Below, piece after piece: positions 8,736 to 48,454 of a stretch of DNA of 64,000 nt; position 1 is the first letter of the stretch; the number at the start of each line of letters is the position of its first letter. Source of the stretch: Gemmatimonadota bacterium (GTDB lineage Bacteria; Gemmatimonadota; Gemmatimonadetes; Gemmatimonadales; GWC2-71-9). A program made the position numbers and the translations under genes. The notes beneath the pieces were generated by a model. It had not been told where the DNA came from. It searched no databases and saw nothing but the letters and a program-made list of their open reading frames with translations. The stretch is taken from positions 1-64,000 of the forward strand of contig SHZT01000012.1 in assembly GCA_009692185.1 (NCBI GenBank), written 5' to 3'.

Positions 8736-10807
8736 CACTTGCGTCGAACCCGGCGAATCCGGTCGCCCTGGGTGATACCAGCCAGGAGCTCGAATCCAGA
8801 CTCCACGCGGCCGAATACGGGGTAAATGGCGTCGAGATGCGGTTGGGGCGTGAGCGTGATGAAGAACTGACTCCCTCCCGTGTCCGGCCCATCCAGCGCC
8901 AGGCCCACCATGCCCGCCGTGAAATGCTGGCGGCTCACCTCGTCGCGGAGCGCGAAGCCCGGCCCGCCCGACCCGTCGCCGCGGGGGTCGCCGTCCTGCG
9001 CGACGAAACCGGGTACGACGCGATGCCACGCGCTTCCGTCGAAGTAGCCCCGGTCAGCCAATCGAAGGAATGCATTGACGGTGAGGGGCGCATCCGCGCC
9101 GAGGAGCGTCATCGTGAGGCTTCCGCGGTCGGTCTCAATCACGAGGCCCGGGCCGGCCGCTCCGCGGGCCGAGGGGATCAGGATACGGCGGGCGATTTCC
9201 CGGTAGTCGCCCCGTTCCCTTCCCGTGGTGATAGGCTCGGCCGGGCCCCATGCCGCCGCGAGCTGGGGGAACTGCGTACCGGCGACGCGTCGCAGCAGGT
9301 AGTCATCGCACGTGGGAAACCGGCGAAGGACGGCATCGACGACCAGGGTCCCGGCTCCCGGAGCGCGCGACAATCGACCAAGGCCGGTGACCGCCGCGAT
9401 ACGGGCGTCGGGAATGGGGTCCCGGGCGGCGCGGGCGTAGAGGTCAAGCAACGCGGCGACTCCGGACGTGTCATCCCGCGCGGCGAACCGCGCGGCGGCG
9501 AAGGCACGGACAATCGGATCCTCGTGATTGGTCATGGTGCGCAAGACGTTGAACGCGCGCGCGGGGTCCGCATCGCCGAGCGCGGACGCCGCCGCGGCTG
9601 CCACCCGGCCATCCTTGTCGCGCACCATGAGCTCCAGCGCTGCCACAGCGCTGTCGCCCCCGATCACTCCCAGGGCCTCGGCCGCCGTGGAGCGGAGGCG
9701 GAAATCCGGGTCTGTGCGCCATTTGCGGACGGGATCGAGCGCGGCCGGGCCCGCGGCCCGTGCCAGGGACAGAAGCGCCTGCCGCCGGATCGCGAACGCC
9801 CCTTCATCTATATAGCCTGCCAGTTCGTCCGCCGACTGTGCTCCCCGCAGCTGGCCGAGTGCGGCCAGGGCCTGCACCCGGACGTTGAGGTCGGGATCAC
9901 CCAGGCGCTCGATGACCGTGGCCGCCAGTTCCTGTGTCCCGTACGTCGCCAGGGCACGGAGTGCCGACACTCGTACGTAGGCGTCCGAGTCGGCCACCAG
10001 CCGACGGACCCGGGACGCAAGCGCATTCCGGTCAATCCGGGTGGAATCAGCGTACGCGACGGTCAACTCCCGAACGGCCGTCGCGCGAATCAGGGCCACG
10101 CTGTCTTCGGTGGCTGCCAGCAGCACGTCGGCGGCCGCCTGTGCCTTGAGGCGACCGACCGAGTAGAGCGCCCGCCACCGAACGTTCGGGTCCTGGGCCT
10201 CCGCGAACGCCAGTATGGCGGCGACGGGCGCGTCGGCGCCCAACCGCCACGCATCGCCGAGTGCCTCGGTGACCGGAGGCGGAACCGCCGCGAGCCCCGC
10301 GGCTGACGCCCAGCGAGTGAGCAGGTCGGTAAACACGCGGGCCGCGTCGGTACCACCGATTCGGGCCATAGCCAGCACCGCTTCCGTCTGGACGCCGGGT
10401 GCGGCATGGCCGGTCTCGTCCATGGCGAGCAGGCGAAGCCTGGGGATTGCCGACGGATCTCTCAAAAGACCAATCGCGAATGCCGCGCTGGCCGCAACGG
10501 CCGTGTCCGGGTCGGCCAGCAACTCCAGGAGAATGGGCGTGGCGCCACGCTGACCAATTCGACCCATCGCCAAGGCGGCCTGAACCCGAACGATCGGGTC
10601 GGTGTGACGGCTGGCGGAACGGAACAGCGGGCCGTCGTAATTCCGGGCGTCCGCAGCCGCCAATACGCCGGCGAGTGCGTCGGCGATGGCTTCGTCTTGT
10701 TGTGCGTGGAGTGAGGCCGGAACGCCCAGGAAAAGGCTACAGGCGAACCGGATCCACCGTGGGTTCAAGGTGGGACAAGACTTCGGGCGGGATGGAACTG
10801 AGGCCAT
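8735..10807 (-). CDS. HEAT-repeat protein fused to cyclophilin-type peptidyl-prolyl isomerase
   Basis: About 690 residues with an N-terminal secretion signal ending LHAQ. Residues about 40-450 are alpha-helical HEAT repeats of about 32 residues (for example DPNVRWRALYSVGRLKAQAA). Residues about 510-680 are a cyclophilin: WHRVVPGFVAQDGDPRGDGS, GMVGLALDGPDTGGSQFFIT and DAIYPVFGRV carry the conserved active-site residues. It is therefore a periplasmic proline isomerase on a protein-binding scaffold, perhaps assisting barrel proteins such as the one encoded next to it. ATG at 10807 lies within the thioesterase gene; TTG at 10768 would shorten the signal and the overlap. Confidence 0.8.
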   Translation of the reverse strand: MASVPSRPKSCPTLNPRWIRFACSLFLGVPASLHAQQDEAIADALAGVLAAADARNYDGPLFRSASRHTDPIVRVQAALAMGRIGQRGATPILLELLADPDTAVAASAAFAIGLLRDPSAIPRLRLLAMDETGHAAPGVQTEAVLAMARIGGTDAARVFTDLLTRWASAAGLAAVPPPVTEALGDAWRLGADAPVAAILAFAEAQDPNVRWRALYSVGRLKAQAAADVLLAATEDSVALIRATAVRELTVAYADSTRIDRNALASRVRRLVADSDAYVRVSALRALATYGTQELAATVIERLGDPDLNVRVQALAALGQLRGAQSADELAGYIDEGAFAIRRQALLSLARAAGPAALDPVRKWRTDPDFRLRSTAAEALGVIGGDSAVAALELMVRDKDGRVAAAAASALGDADPARAFNVLRTMTNHEDPIVRAFAAARFAARDDTSGVAALLDLYARAARDPIPDARIAAVTGLGRLSRAPGAGTLVVDAVLRRFPTCDDYLLRRVAGTQFPQLAAAWGPAEPITTGRERGDYREIARRILIPSARGAAGPGLVIETDRGSLTMTLLGADAPLTVNAFLRLADRGYFDGSAWHRVVPGFVAQDGDPRGDGSGGPGFALRDEVSRQHFTAGMVGLALDGPDTGGSQFFITLTPQPHLDAIYPVFGRVESGFELLAGITQGDRIRRVRRK

Positions 10808-11162
10808 GCTTCGAATCTAAGGCCATGAGCGACGTCTGGGCGGTTGCCAGGCACTGCGTCTTGCCGGCGCGATAAACCGCGTACCCGAACACGATCTTCC
10901 GGCGGTTCCGCTCGCGTACCCAGCAATCCACCCGCAGCACGTCATCATAGCAAGCCGGGGAGCGGTAGCGAACCGAAACCTCGGTTACGGCCAGGAGAAG
11001 GCCCTGTGCCTCAAGGTCCCGATAACTGATTCCCGAGTCTCGCATGAAGGCGGTCCGGGCGTCCTCGCACCACACGACGTAGTGAGAGTGGTGCGCGATG
11101 CCCATCTGGTCGGTCTCGGCATAGCGGACGCGGAGCTGGATGGAGTGGATGCCTGCCGTCAC
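10737..11162 (-). CDS. YbgC/4HBT-type acyl-CoA thioesterase
   Basis: A 141-residue single hot-dog domain. The sequence RVRYAETDQMGIAHHSHYV carries the catalytic aspartate and the helix of the 4-hydroxybenzoyl-CoA thioesterase/YbgC family, and EVSVRYRSPACYDDVLRV follows as expected. It hydrolyses acyl-CoA; YbgC homologues usually work near Tol-Pal, absent here. Its GTG start overlaps the pduL stop by one base (TAGTG), so it may instead act on the acyl-CoA made by the microcompartment enzymes. That link is inference from position. Confidence 0.88.
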   Translation of the reverse strand: MTAGIHSIQLRVRYAETDQMGIAHHSHYVVWCEDARTAFMRDSGISYRDLEAQGLLLAVTEVSVRYRSPACYDDVLRVDCWVRERNRRKIVFGYAVYRAGKTQCLATAQTSLMALDSKHGLSSIPPEVLSHLEPTVDPVRL

Positions 11163-12211
11163 TACTCTTCCCGCCAGATCCCGAGCGCTTTGGCGCGATC
11201 CCGGGCCAGCGGCGTGAGGCGATAGGGGGCCTTTTCGCTGAGCGTTTCACCGCGGGCTGCGACGCCATCAACGCCCCGTTCCGTGAGCAGGGGTCGCGCG
11301 CCGCGAGGCGCCCGCGCGCGGAAGCGCGATGGGCGGCCGGCCAGCGCGGCCACGTCGCCGGTCTTGACGCCGAAGGCGTGGGCCTCGTCGGTATCAAGGT
11401 GCATTTCGGTCGCATGGGAGCCACCGCTCCGAATGAGCACGTCGTGGAGGGTCACCCGGCGGTCCATCGGCCCGAGAACGACGGACACGCGGTCGCCGTC
11501 TGTCACGCCCAGCCGGCCCGCCTCTGGCGGACCCACGTGGATGTGGCGGGCCGCGACGATTGCTCCCTCGGGCAAGGTGACGGAGCCTTGCGGACCTTCG
11601 AGCGTGATGCCTGCGCTGCCCGCCGTCGCCCCCGAATGCCGAACGGGAGCTTCCAACCCGATCTGCCGGCAATCTGCCGCCGACAATTCGACCTGAGTCG
11701 CCTTCCGAGTCGGTCCCACAATGCGGACGCCCTCGATGGAGCCCTTCGGCCCGACCACCTTCACCTTTTCCAACGCCGCGAACTGTCCGGGCTGGGAAAT
11801 GGGCCGCTCCGGCGCGGGCCGCTTCCCGGCCCCGAACAACTTCTCGAAGTCGGCCTGGGCGATGTGGATATGCCGGTTGGAGATCGCGATTTTCACCGTC
11901 CGACCGCTCGCGGCGGCCGAAGTCGCCTCTTCCCGGCCTCCCGGCAACGGAGATGGACCGCGACCCGCCGCGGCCGCCCGGGCAGCGGTGACGATGGCAT
12001 CGTAGGCCGGGCGGTGCCGGCCGGATGCCGTCCTTCGTCCGATGACCGGAGCGATGTCGCTCAACTGCTGGGCGGATGCGGCGTATGCCGGGAGATGTCC
12101 CGGCGTGGGCGGACCCGGCGGCTCGGGCCGGACCGGCGCGGGAACCCACGCCTGTCGTGACAGGAGGTCGGCGATGCGGGCGGCGAGCGCTTCCAATTCG
12201 TCCTTCGTCAC
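11162..12211 (-). CDS. pduL: PduL-type phosphate acyltransferase with extended N terminus
   Basis: PduL exchanges CoA for phosphate on acyl-CoA, giving acyl-phosphate and recycling CoA inside microcompartments. Zinc-ligand motifs are seen twice: SNRHIHIAQADF (HIH at 114-116) and ARHIHVGPPEAG (223-225); the second half also has DGDRVSVVLGP and EMHLDTDEAHAFGV. At 349 residues it is about 100 longer than usual: residues 1-22 form an amphipathic helix (DELEALAARIADLLSRQ) like an encapsulation peptide, then a proline-rich linker. A 45-residue basic tail ends the protein. It overlaps the aldehyde dehydrogenase gene by four bases. Confidence 0.9.
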   Translation of the reverse strand: MTKDELEALAARIADLLSRQAWVPAPVRPEPPGPPTPGHLPAYAASAQQLSDIAPVIGRRTASGRHRPAYDAIVTAARAAAAGRGPSPLPGGREEATSAAASGRTVKIAISNRHIHIAQADFEKLFGAGKRPAPERPISQPGQFAALEKVKVVGPKGSIEGVRIVGPTRKATQVELSAADCRQIGLEAPVRHSGATAGSAGITLEGPQGSVTLPEGAIVAARHIHVGPPEAGRLGVTDGDRVSVVLGPMDRRVTLHDVLIRSGGSHATEMHLDTDEAHAFGVKTGDVAALAGRPSRFRARAPRGARPLLTERGVDGVAARGETLSEKAPYRLTPLARDRAKALGIWREE

Positions 12212-13722
12212 GCGCGCTTCCGGATCCGGCGTTCGGCAAGGAAGGCCTCGACGGCCTTGGCGATATCGTCGGATGGAACGGTGGAACGATTGAATGCTGG
12301 AACGACAGGTACGTCCGTTCCACGTTCGCTTGTTTGCTCGTTCGCTCGTTCACCCGGTGCATCCACGGCAACGAACGGCCGAATCTCGTAGGCGAGGCGC
12401 TTGATGTTGATCAGGTGGAGCGGCGTGATGTTATCGCTGGTCACGGAGCCAGCCCACGTCCCCGGCCCCAGGCTCATCGCGGGCGCGAGGCCGGTGGTGT
12501 ATCCCACCGCACCGAGTGTCGAGGTCGTGTTGACCAGGATCCGAAACGCCGGCTTCTCCTCGAAGAAACGCTGAATCACCGTCTCGTCGGTGCTGTGAAT
12601 GGAGAGCGAATGGCCGAGCCCGCCGAACGTCAGCAGCTCGATCGCCCGCTCGCAGCACTCCTCCCAACCGTCCTCTACGTAGAACGCCAGCACGGGCGAC
12701 AGTTTCTCGCGCGAGAAGAACTCTCCGGGGCCGACAGTCTTGCACTCCACGACCAGGACGCGGGTGTCCCCGGGGACGCTCAAACCCGCCCGCTGCGCGA
12801 TCTCGGTCGCCGGAAGGCCCACGACTTCATGGCTGATGCCGCCGCTGTGCGGGTCCTGCATGCAGCGCTGGAGCTTGTCCCGGTCGGGGCCAGTCACGAA
12901 CAGGGCGCGCTGGCGGGTGAGTTCCGACCGGATCTCCTTCTCGACCGGGCGATCCGCGATGAGCGAATTCTCGGACGAGCAGAGAAGCCCGTAGTCGAAG
13001 TTCTTGCCCGCGACGATGTCCGCCACGGCTTTCCGGATATTGGCAGTGCGTTCGACGATGGCGGGCACGTTCCCCGGGCCGACGCCGTAGGCCGGTTTGC
13101 CGGAGCTGTACGCGGCCCGAACCATCGGTGAGCCGCCGGTTGCGAGGATGACCGCGGTCTTCTTGTTGCGCATCAGTTCGTTGGTCGCCTCGAGGGTCGG
13201 CATCGTCAGGGTCAGGACAAGGTCCTCGGGAGCACCCGCCGAGTGAATGGCCTCCCGCAGGATGCGGACGGTCTCGATGACGCACTTGGTCGCCCGTGGG
13301 TGTGGCGAAATGACGATCGCGTTCCGGCCCTTCACTGAAATGAGCGCCTTGTAGATGGCGGTGGAGGTCGGATTGGTCGTCGGCACGAGTGCGGCGACGA
13401 CGCCCATGGGAACCGCGAGTTCGCGGACCTTGGCCTCGGGGATCTCCCGAACGACGCCGCAGGTCTTGAGGGGCAGGATGTAGTTACGAACGGCTACGGA
13501 GCTGAAGAGGTTCTTCGAGATCTTGTCTTCGTAGCGGCCCATGCCGGTCTCGTCCACTGCCAGCCGGGCCAGTGCCTGCGCCGCGCGCTCAGTGGCCTCG
13601 CCCATCGCGCCAATGACTCGATCGACGTCGGGCTGGGGGGTCCTGGCAAATGCCTGTTGCGCCGTTTGAGCCCGGGCGAGCAGGTCTCGGGCTTCCTGGA
13701 TGGATTCGAGGTCGCGATCCAC
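12208..13722 (-). CDS. CoA-acylating aldehyde dehydrogenase of the microcompartment
   Basis: The 504-residue protein matches the PduP/EutE class, which oxidises an aldehyde to acyl-CoA with NAD+ and CoA. Visible landmarks are PTTNPTSTAIYKALI, the nucleotide-binding region, and the catalytic cysteine in FDYGLLCSSEN (Cys248), followed by GGLGHSLSIHS. After the catalytic core (about residue 450) comes a charged, low-complexity linker and a final helix, DDIAKAVEAFLAERR, a likely encapsulation peptide for shell targeting. It is placed between two BMC-H genes and pduL. Aldehyde chain length cannot be read from sequence. Confidence 0.93.
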   Translation of the reverse strand: MDRDLESIQEARDLLARAQTAQQAFARTPQPDVDRVIGAMGEATERAAQALARLAVDETGMGRYEDKISKNLFSSVAVRNYILPLKTCGVVREIPEAKVRELAVPMGVVAALVPTTNPTSTAIYKALISVKGRNAIVISPHPRATKCVIETVRILREAIHSAGAPEDLVLTLTMPTLEATNELMRNKKTAVILATGGSPMVRAAYSSGKPAYGVGPGNVPAIVERTANIRKAVADIVAGKNFDYGLLCSSENSLIADRPVEKEIRSELTRQRALFVTGPDRDKLQRCMQDPHSGGISHEVVGLPATEIAQRAGLSVPGDTRVLVVECKTVGPGEFFSREKLSPVLAFYVEDGWEECCERAIELLTFGGLGHSLSIHSTDETVIQRFFEEKPAFRILVNTTSTLGAVGYTTGLAPAMSLGPGTWAGSVTSDNITPLHLINIKRLAYEIRPFVAVDAPGERANEQTSERGTDVPVVPAFNRSTVPSDDIAKAVEAFLAERRIRKRA

Positions 13723-13743: not shown

Positions 13744-14205
13744 CTAGAGGAGACCGATTTGACGGAAGCCGGCCAGGATCTCATCGCGGCCGGCCTTGGC
13801 GAGCGTCCGCCCCTTGAGCGGGAAGTTCGGAACCTGGCGGGCGGCTCGGCGGAGTTCCACAACCTTGAGAGACGGGAGCCGCGCCGGATCGACCGAACTG
13901 CCACCACCCGAGCTGGAACCCTCCTCGAGCTCGTCGATGAGGAAGTCGAGCTCGGAGTCTGGTTGGGGAATGACGTGGACGGAGACCAAGTGGCCGACGC
14001 GTTCGGCCGCCGCCGCGGCCGCGTCGACAGCCGCCTTCACCGCCGCGACGTCACCGCGAAACGAAACGGTTACGAGACCCGCGTCCGCGTACTCCCGGCC
14101 GCCAAATGCAACGTCGGCGGCCTTGGTGCCCGCGTCGGCCGCCTCAAGTGCGCCGATCAGCCCGCGCGTCTCGACCAGACCGAGGGCCTGGCCCGACTGC
14201 GCCAC
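13744..14205 (-). CDS. BMC-H shell protein with C-terminal extension
   Basis: Residues 1-95 form a bacterial microcompartment hexamer domain: ALGLVETRGLIGALEAADAG, GLVTVSFRGDVAAVKAAVDA, then [11 protein letters not shown] serine/glycine linker (about 102-110) leads to about 45 extra residues (LPSLKVVELRRAARQVPN, then FPLKGRTLAKAGRDE) predicted helical and basic. Such tails can anchor cargo or face the lumen; the role here is unknown. Three bases separate it from the first BMC-H gene, and they are surely co-transcribed. Confidence 0.93.
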   Translation of the reverse strand: MAQSGQALGLVETRGLIGALEAADAGTKAADVAFGGREYADAGLVTVSFRGDVAAVKAAVDAAAAAAERVGHLVSVHVIPQPDSELDFLIDELEEGSSSGGGSSVDPARLPSLKVVELRRAARQVPNFPLKGRTLAKAGRDEILAGFRQIGLL

Positions 14206-14208
14206 GGG

Positions 14209-14496
14209 TTAGCTCTCTTCCGCGCGTTGCGGAAGGATGAACTCGATGTCCTGATGCGGACGCGGAATGACGTGAACCGAGACGAGCTCGCCCACGCGTT
14301 CGGCCGCGGCAGCACCGGCATCGGTGGCGGCTTTCACCGCACCGACATCGCCGCGGACCATGACCGTGACGTAGCCGCCCCCGATCTTTTCCTTGCCCAC
14401 CAGACGGACGTGAGCGGCCTTGACCATGGCGTCGGCAGCCTCGATGGCGCCTACCAGGCCTTTGGTTTCGATGAGTCCCAGCGCATTGTTCGACAT
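14209..14496 (-). CDS. BMC-H shell protein (PduA/EutM type)
   Basis: At 95 residues this is a canonical single-domain hexameric shell protein: [39 protein letters not shown], and the C-terminal SVHVIPRPH. Such hexamers tile the facets of polyhedral microcompartments, the central pore letting small metabolites through. It is the first gene of the minus-strand chain, with a strong ribosome site (GGGGAGGAG about 8 nt before ATG) and a clear promoter upstream, fitting the high dose needed for a shell component. Confidence 0.96.
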
Positions 14497-14530
14497 TCCA
14501 AAACTCCTCCCCGGAGCACGGGTTGGGCAA

Positions 14531-14567
14531 CGGGAGCAACATTAGGTGCTCCCGAGCGAAAAGTCAA
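14531..14567 (-). promoter_or_regulatory. BMC operon promoter with palindromic operator
   Basis: On the minus strand TTGACT (14562-14567) and TAATGT (14539-14544) are separated by 17 bp, a good sigma-70 type promoter. A perfect inverted repeat CGGGAGCA-N8-TGCTCCCG (14531-14554) is centred on the -10 box, the position of a repressor site. The transcript would start near 14532 and have about 35 nt of leader before the first shell gene. No regulator gene lies nearby. Confidence 0.75.
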
Positions 14568-14580
14568 TCAGGACAGGAGG

Positions 14581-14610
14581 TTGCGAGCCAGCCGACCCTA
14601 CCCATATACT
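14581..14610 (+). promoter_or_regulatory. Promoter of LpxH-like gene, probably leaderless
   Basis: TTGCGA (14581-14586), an 18-bp spacer and TATACT (14605-14610) end six bases before the GTG at 14617. The expected transcription start coincides with the start codon and there is no ribosome-binding sequence, so the mRNA should be leaderless. Confidence 0.6.
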
Positions 14611-14616
14611 GCCCCC

Positions 14617-15357
14617 GTGCCCCCAAAAGCCGCTGCCGTCGTTTCCGATGCCCACTTGGGACACACTCCCGGTGTCGTTGGAGCCACCTTTCTGGCCTTC
14701 GTGAAAGCCATCCCTGGCATGGCCGACCACTTGGTGATCAACGGGGACCTGTTCGATTTCTGGTTTGAGTACCGGCGGGTGATCCCCCGGGACGCATTCC
14801 CTGCCCTGGCGGCGCTCTCGGATATGAGATCCCGGGGTGTTCGGCTCACCGTAACGGGGGGGAACCACGACCGTTGGGGTGGTGACTTCTGGGTTCGGGA
14901 GTTGGGGGCGGACTTTCACGCCGGACCGGTCGAACTCGACCTGGCTGGTCGGCGAGCCTTCCTGGCTCACGGTGACGGGCTGGCCGAGAGTCGTCTGCTG
15001 AGCCGGGTGATGCACCGCATCACCCGCCACCCGGTCACGACGGGCGCGTTTCGACTGATCCACCCCGACGTTGGCTTCTGGTTGGCTGACCGCCTGTCAG
15101 GAGTGCTGGCCGAGCAGACGAAGACCCCCGCTGCCCTGGCACAGGCGGCGGCCCTGCAGGAAACGTTTGCGCGGGACCTGATGACCCGGCGCCCTGACCT
15201 CGAGTTAGTAGTTCTCGGTCACACGCACCATGCGGTTATTCGGGAGGTTGCGCCCGGGCGATGGTATGTCAATTCTGGCGCGTGGATGGAGGGGTATTCG
15301 TACGCACTGGTGGGCCTGGATGGGCCCGTTCTGCGGAGGTTCGAGCCGTCCTTCTAG
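14617..15357 (+). CDS. LpxH-like UDP-2,3-diacylglucosamine pyrophosphatase / calcineurin-type phosphoesterase
   Basis: The 246-residue metallophosphoesterase has the ordered metal motifs SDAHLGH, NGDLFDFWFEY, GGNHDRW, LAHGDG and LGHTHHA. GDLFDFWFEY and the histidine-rich helix region (VMHRITRHPVT) match LpxH, which cleaves UDP-2,3-diacylglucosamine to lipid X in lipid A synthesis at the inner membrane. No other lpx gene is in the window, so a broader UDP-sugar hydrolase role is possible. GTG at 14617 is set by the promoter spacing. The last codon shares CTAG with the convergent gene. Confidence 0.8.
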   Translation: MPPKAAAVVSDAHLGHTPGVVGATFLAFVKAIPGMADHLVINGDLFDFWFEYRRVIPRDAFPALAALSDMRSRGVRLTVTGGNHDRWGGDFWVRELGADFHAGPVELDLAGRRAFLAHGDGLAESRLLSRVMHRITRHPVTTGAFRLIHPDVGFWLADRLSGVLAEQTKTPAALAQAAALQETFARDLMTRRPDLELVVLGHTHHAVIREVAPGRWYVNSGAWMEGYSYALVGLDGPVLRRFEPSF

Positions 15358-48407: not shown

Positions 48408-48454
48408 AACACAGCAACTTAACTGTGTTAGCACTCCTTAACGTAGAGTGCTAG
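48408..48454 (-). promoter_or_regulatory. CIRCE operator (HrcA site) plus leader hairpin
   Basis: TTAGCACTC-N9-GAGTGCTAG (48428-48454) matches the CIRCE consensus except for the last base (A to G). HrcA represses groESL here until heat or misfolded protein titrates GroEL. A second inverted repeat AACACAG-N8-CTGTGTT (48408-48429) overlaps its edge and would fold in the mRNA leader just ahead of the ribosome site. Confidence 0.92.

Follow-up and report, generated by a model that had tools for sequence, protein, structure and literature searches.

A perfect 24-bp inverted repeat lies over the promoter of a BMC shell operon in the 64,000-nucleotide stretch of Gemmatimonadota DNA analysed here (the window), which raises the question of whether shell production is switched through it. 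The first-pass annotation had read the repeat as the operator of a repressor acting from a distance. The repeat, CGGGAGCA-N8-TGCTCCCG, is indeed exact at 14531-14554, in sequence and coordinates, and consists of CGGGAGCA (14531-14538), ACATTAGG (14539-14546) and TGCTCCCG (14547-14554), its minus-strand reading being the operator candidate. A minus-strand promoter facing the BMC operon runs over it, with TTGACT (14567-14562) and TAATGT (14544-14539) separated by 17 bp, and the −10 box falls within the spacer of the repeat, as had been proposed. Promoter and repeat are located about 35 bp upstream of the BMC-H ATG. The −35 box matches the consensus at 5/6 positions and the −10 box at only 3/6, and a generic promoter scan does not include the BMC promoter among its calls. 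The operon runs from BMC-H through a second BMC-H, AldDH and a PduL-type PTAC to a 4HBT thioesterase. For comparison we used 121 near genomes, 14 of which (own genome counted) encode a BMC-H at least 83% identical to that of the window; a draw from the phylum added four genomes of family f2 and G152 of family f4. The 18 BMC-operon orthologues compared belong to families f1-f3. The features of the locus are as follows.

10740-11162, minus strand: 4HBT thioesterase (PF13279), the direct LpxH neighbour in many BMC-lacking relatives
11165-12211, minus strand: PduL-type phosphotransacylase (PTAC) with an N-terminal extension (PF06130; NF011652 over cut-off)
12211-13722, minus strand: acylating acetaldehyde dehydrogenase-like AldDH (PF00171; TIGR02518 at 563 bits, under the 620-bit cut-off)
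13747-14205, minus strand: second BMC-H shell protein, with a C-terminal extension (PF00936, 2.1e-23)
14212-14496, minus strand: BMC-H shell protein, operon gene 1 (PF00936, 3.8e-30)
14531-14554, minus strand: inverted repeat CGGGAGCA-CCTAATGT-TGCTCCCG, operator candidate (exact match; sole exact copy in own genome)
14539-14544, minus strand: TAATGT, −10 box for the BMC operon, 17 bp away from the −35 box (final T invariant; second position A in 17/18)
14562-14567, minus strand: TTGACT, −35 box for the BMC operon (TTGAC in f1 and f3, TTTAC in f2; 18/18)
14581-14610, plus strand: TTGCGA-N18-TATACT, promoter serving the divergent LpxH-like gene (promoter scan), without overlap with the inverted repeat
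14617-15354, plus strand: LpxH-like UDP-2,3-diacylglucosamine diphosphatase, divergent neighbour (PF00149; best NCBIfam models LpxH, below cut-off)

We note in passing that the LpxH-like gene is apparently leaderless (TATACT, 6 bp, GTG at 14605-14619), with a similar TATACT-GTG arrangement in several f2 relatives.

The palindrome by itself is within chance expectation and proves nothing. Exact inverted repeats with 8-bp arms and spacers of 0-20 bp number 58 in the window against a simulated mean of 51, and those with an 8-bp spacer number 2 against a simulated mean of 2.5. Because chance would produce about 2.5 such repeats per window, the significance of this one depends on where it lies and on how well it is conserved, and the palindrome adds nothing to it. 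The own genome (G000; 2.63 Mb, 99.94% complete) holds one exact copy, and its 44 sites with up to three mismatches are fewer than the 101 of the reversed control pattern.

Conservation is confined largely to one half of the repeat. In the upstream alignment GGAGCA is invariant in all 18 orthologues, followed by C in 16 and T in 2, and its spacing from the preceding TTGAC/TTTAC is constant throughout, the −10 box following immediately. Six alignment columns are fully invariant, while adjacent non-promoter columns are low in information. The pattern used to anchor the alignment itself includes GGAGCA; this does not create the invariance, because none of the f1-f3 orthologues failed the pattern. 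In 12 of the 14 near genomes with the operon the pattern TTKACN9SGGAGCAC is matched exactly just once, at the BMC promoter, and the BMC promoters of the other two (G067 and G091) match with one mismatch. Likewise, GGGAGCACNTANNNTNGC occurs ten times in the 121 genomes, seven times as a BMC promoter. Three exact matches in BMC-lacking genomes (G050, G119 and G092) have no shell gene, were judged coding from their translations and were set aside. The more distant, class-level relative G152 (f4) has no GGAGCAC between its −35 and −10 boxes and carries GTGCTCCC, in inverse orientation, there instead (L125). Separately, a shell gene of family f7 has GGGAGC nearby (L132-L134), in what looks like a different, mid-operon context.

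Relatives without the BMC genes are also without the half-site at the corresponding promoter. In many of them 4HBT comes next to LpxH, with no shell, AldDH and PTAC genes in between, and GGAGCA(C/T) is found at that promoter in none of the 20 BMC-lacking loci examined, the single occurrence among them being at the LpxH start in G097. Several of these relatives retain a promoter-like TTTACA or TTGACTTTT. Indeed, G037, which lacks BMC genes and belongs to the same GTDB genus as the BMC-bearing G067, has kept TTGACTTTT and reads TTGACTTTTGGACCGCGACAGCCGTATTTT, with the element missing. The persistence of promoter-like sequence without the element implies that the element goes with the BMC genes and not with the promoter.

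The other half of the dyad is variable in position as well as in sequence. The half-sites in the window are the following.

14546-14552, minus strand: invariant half-site GGAGCAC between −35 and −10 (GGAGCA(C/T) in 18/18 with BMC genes; absent at that promoter position in 20 BMC-lacking relatives)
14533-14539, minus strand: right arm TTGCTCC as middle half-site, at offset 13 relative to the left one (kept in G000, G048, G067 and G023 only; lost in G001)
14513-14519, minus strand: GTGCTCC as distal half-site, at offset 33 and within the expected 5' leader (GTGCTCC/GTGCTAC/GTGCCAC/ATGCTAC at offset 22-24 or 33-36 in 15/18)

The right arm TGCTCCC is thus kept in 4 of the 18 orthologues, all in family f1, and even the congeneric G001 has GGCTGGC instead; the exact palindrome is ruled out as the conserved unit. 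Most genomes nevertheless carry a partner RTGCTMC/GTGCCAC at offset 13, 22-24 or 33-36, the second partner being GTGCTCC in f1, GTGCTAC or GTGCCAC in f3 and mostly ATGCTAC in f2. Three f2 genomes are without a clear partner (only degenerate ones in G095 and G112, none in G091). The partner offsets (13, ~23 and ~34) are about one helical turn apart, a spacing suggestive of binding on one face of the DNA, and the phasing may be coincidence since it is based on three clusters of related sequences.

The first-pass annotation had expected further copies to reveal a regulon and a GntR-, DeoR- or LacI-type controller, and neither expectation was borne out. Palindrome and half-site pattern searches found no second promoter copy in the own genome, where the one- and two-mismatch palindrome sites all lie within coding sequence. 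Across 84,980 species genomes the only matches to the fuller palindrome were two BMC promoters, both from Gemmatimonadota, and four unrelated sites within ORFs. The intergenic repeats of relatives are mostly terminator-like, which, together with the coding nature of the near copies, rules out definition of a regulon by palindrome search. These relatives repeatedly have GGAGCAC-N5/6-GTGCTCC between convergent genes (L187-L195), where it is probably a transcription terminator; the copies in G067 and G001 adjoin a GspE-like gene.

The statement that no regulator is adjacent holds more widely: none was recognised beside the operon in 13 related loci, where unassigned ORFs are without individual annotation, and action in trans is plausible. 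Transcription factors were sampled by a search for four families. The SorC domain of DeoR-type proteins was found in 0 of 32 genomes, and LacI in neither the own genome nor 7 of the 11 BMC-bearing genomes. The own genome's sole GntR/HTH_DeoR-like match is a SufR-like protein of 225 aa, and similar weak matches also occur in BMC-lacking genomes. An operator for a GntR, DeoR (SorC) or LacI regulator is therefore not supported, as these searches found no such regulator common to the BMC-bearing genomes. The literature on nucleoside and BMC regulation searched here yielded nothing specific.

The remaining BMC parts are encoded elsewhere in the genome. Three BMC-P genes lie outside the operon, one beside Cdd and DeoB on contig C9 (L119:7704-9603, Alr-DeoB-Cdd-BMC-P) and two beside DeoC on contig C27 (L120:9119-10780, rhomboid-BMC-P-BMC-P-DeoC), where DeoB and Cdd were named by eye from sequence. 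The long N-terminal extension of the C27 DeoC is possibly an encapsulation peptide. The gene content of these satellite loci points to a deoxynucleoside-degrading BMC and, with PduL and an AldDH whose best NCBIfam model is acylating acetaldehyde dehydrogenase (below cut-off), indicates a predicted breakdown of deoxyribose 5-phosphate through acetaldehyde. Such a route has been proposed for SPU and HO BMCs in passages of PMC4207490 and PMC8217296. The element is absent from the satellite BMC promoters (L119 and L120), which rules out the BMC-P loci as co-targets.

Position, fixed geometry, conservation, absence without BMC genes and a single promoter occurrence per genome are features of the element itself, and a cis-regulatory function is, at the level of sequence comparison, well supported. 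Two features expected of repressor operators in general are found here: a dyad-symmetric site over the core promoter, and conservation in front of the orthologous genes (18/18) together with absence where those genes are absent (0/20 BMC-lacking loci). We consider that the element is probably the operator of the BMC shell operon, bound by a trans-acting repressor with essentially one target. Of the original proposal, the regulatory site in front of the shell operon thus stands, carried by the GGAGCA half, and the perfect palindrome as its conserved form does not; similarly, of the two outcomes named in advance as counting against it, the lack of any other occurrence in the genome was found and the lack of conservation in relatives was not.

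In the mechanism that we propose, a DNA-binding protein whose gene lies at another locus would bind GGAGCAC between −35 and −10, would also engage the inverted partner RTGCTMC roughly one, two or three helical turns downstream, and would block RNA polymerase until an inducer is present. Repression by a trans-acting protein is the most likely mechanism; both binding and repression, rather than activation, are what we infer, and repression is favoured because the site overlaps the core promoter and the expected (predicted) start. The inducer would likely be an intermediate of deoxynucleoside or deoxyribose breakdown, because the remaining BMC parts are encoded with DeoB, Cdd and DeoC at the two other loci. 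The operator reading would have to accommodate a candidate regulator and a second target not found in the searches, and a right arm poorly conserved outside f1. It is a doubtful, though conceivable, extension that the regulator is a dedicated one-target protein of an undescribed kind, with an operator whose fixed half-site has a movable partner shifting by whole helical turns between lineages.

The poor −10 box (3/6) would need help, and this, like the failure of the generic scan to call the promoter, fits a transcription activator or a MerR-like remodeller binding the site; the half-site also occupies the −35/−10 interval, the region to which MerR-type proteins bind. The spacers of MerR-type promoters measure 19-20 bp, whereas all 18 spacers here are 17 bp, and partner half-sites that for the most part coincide with the expected start or follow it are unusual for activators; we regard activation as unlikely. 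Were GGAGCAC instead an intrinsic promoter element or one recognised by an alternative sigma factor, with no regulator site at all, its fixed spacing to −35 and −10 and the invariance of only one side of the dyad would be accounted for. Recurrence would then be expected, yet each genome has just one copy at a promoter; promoter-like sequence precedes 4HBT in BMC-lacking relatives without GGAGCAC, and the helical-step partner half-sites are left unexplained, so that this reading has a small chance of being correct. Smaller still is the chance that the GTGCTCC repeats act as RNA in the 5' leader, through a hairpin or by pairing with the GGAGG ribosome-binding site. In several f1 genomes the distal site has a CTCC able to pair with a subsequent GGAG, and TAGCAC/GTGCTA and GGCACG/CGTGCC covary in f3, but the invariant GGAGCAC, being upstream of where transcription is expected to begin, would not be part of the transcript, f3 is without CTCC, and no Rfam family matches (best E=0.067, below the gathering score). 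A functionless chance palindrome fits the 2-3 repeats of such size expected per window and the lack of genome-wide enrichment, and could hold for the right arm alone, but for the GGAGCAC half it is contradicted by conservation in 18/18 and absence without BMC genes, and overall it is highly improbable.

Comparison with known systems sets the candidate operator apart. The CIRCE operator of HrcA (TTAGCACTC-N9-GAGTGCTAA) is likewise an inverted repeat that covers a promoter and has AGCAC/GTGCT as its core, and HrcA is a trans-acting repressor. CIRCE lacks the GAG flank of the present element, and its AGCAC-to-GTGCT offset is 18, versus ~11, 20-22 and 31-34 here; an identity as a CIRCE/HrcA site is ruled out by sequence and spacing. 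The window separately contains a CIRCE-like TAGCACTC-N9-GAGTGCTA at 48429-48453, before groES/groEL, as expected of an HrcA operator. CytR and DeoR operators (E. coli and B. subtilis) are alike in that the same kind of pathway is regulated from a distance, but their half-site differs from GGAGCAC, and the own genome is without a LacI or SorC-type DeoR protein. PMC3454398 describes CytR as an unusual member of the LacI family that regulates the use of nucleosides.

Among BMC types, the genome resembles the HO type in its BMC-P triplet (passages of Sutter et al., 2021, PMC8217296), with two of the three BMC-P genes beside an aldolase in a satellite locus, and the FRAG type, reported there in Gemmatimonadetes, in having shell genes scattered over several loci. 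It differs from both in a further locus joining BMC-P to DeoB and Cdd. The PMC8217296 passages contain nothing on cis-regulation of HO or FRAG loci.

The genes of Gemmatimonadota BMCs are spread across several loci, and beside the present shell operon no regulator is recognised. A conserved operator would, as bait DNA, offer a handle on the timing of shell production in cells without a BMC-linked regulator. That the satellite loci are without the site suggests that switching may be limited to the hexamer/AldDH/PduL operon, which bears on the stoichiometry of assembly.
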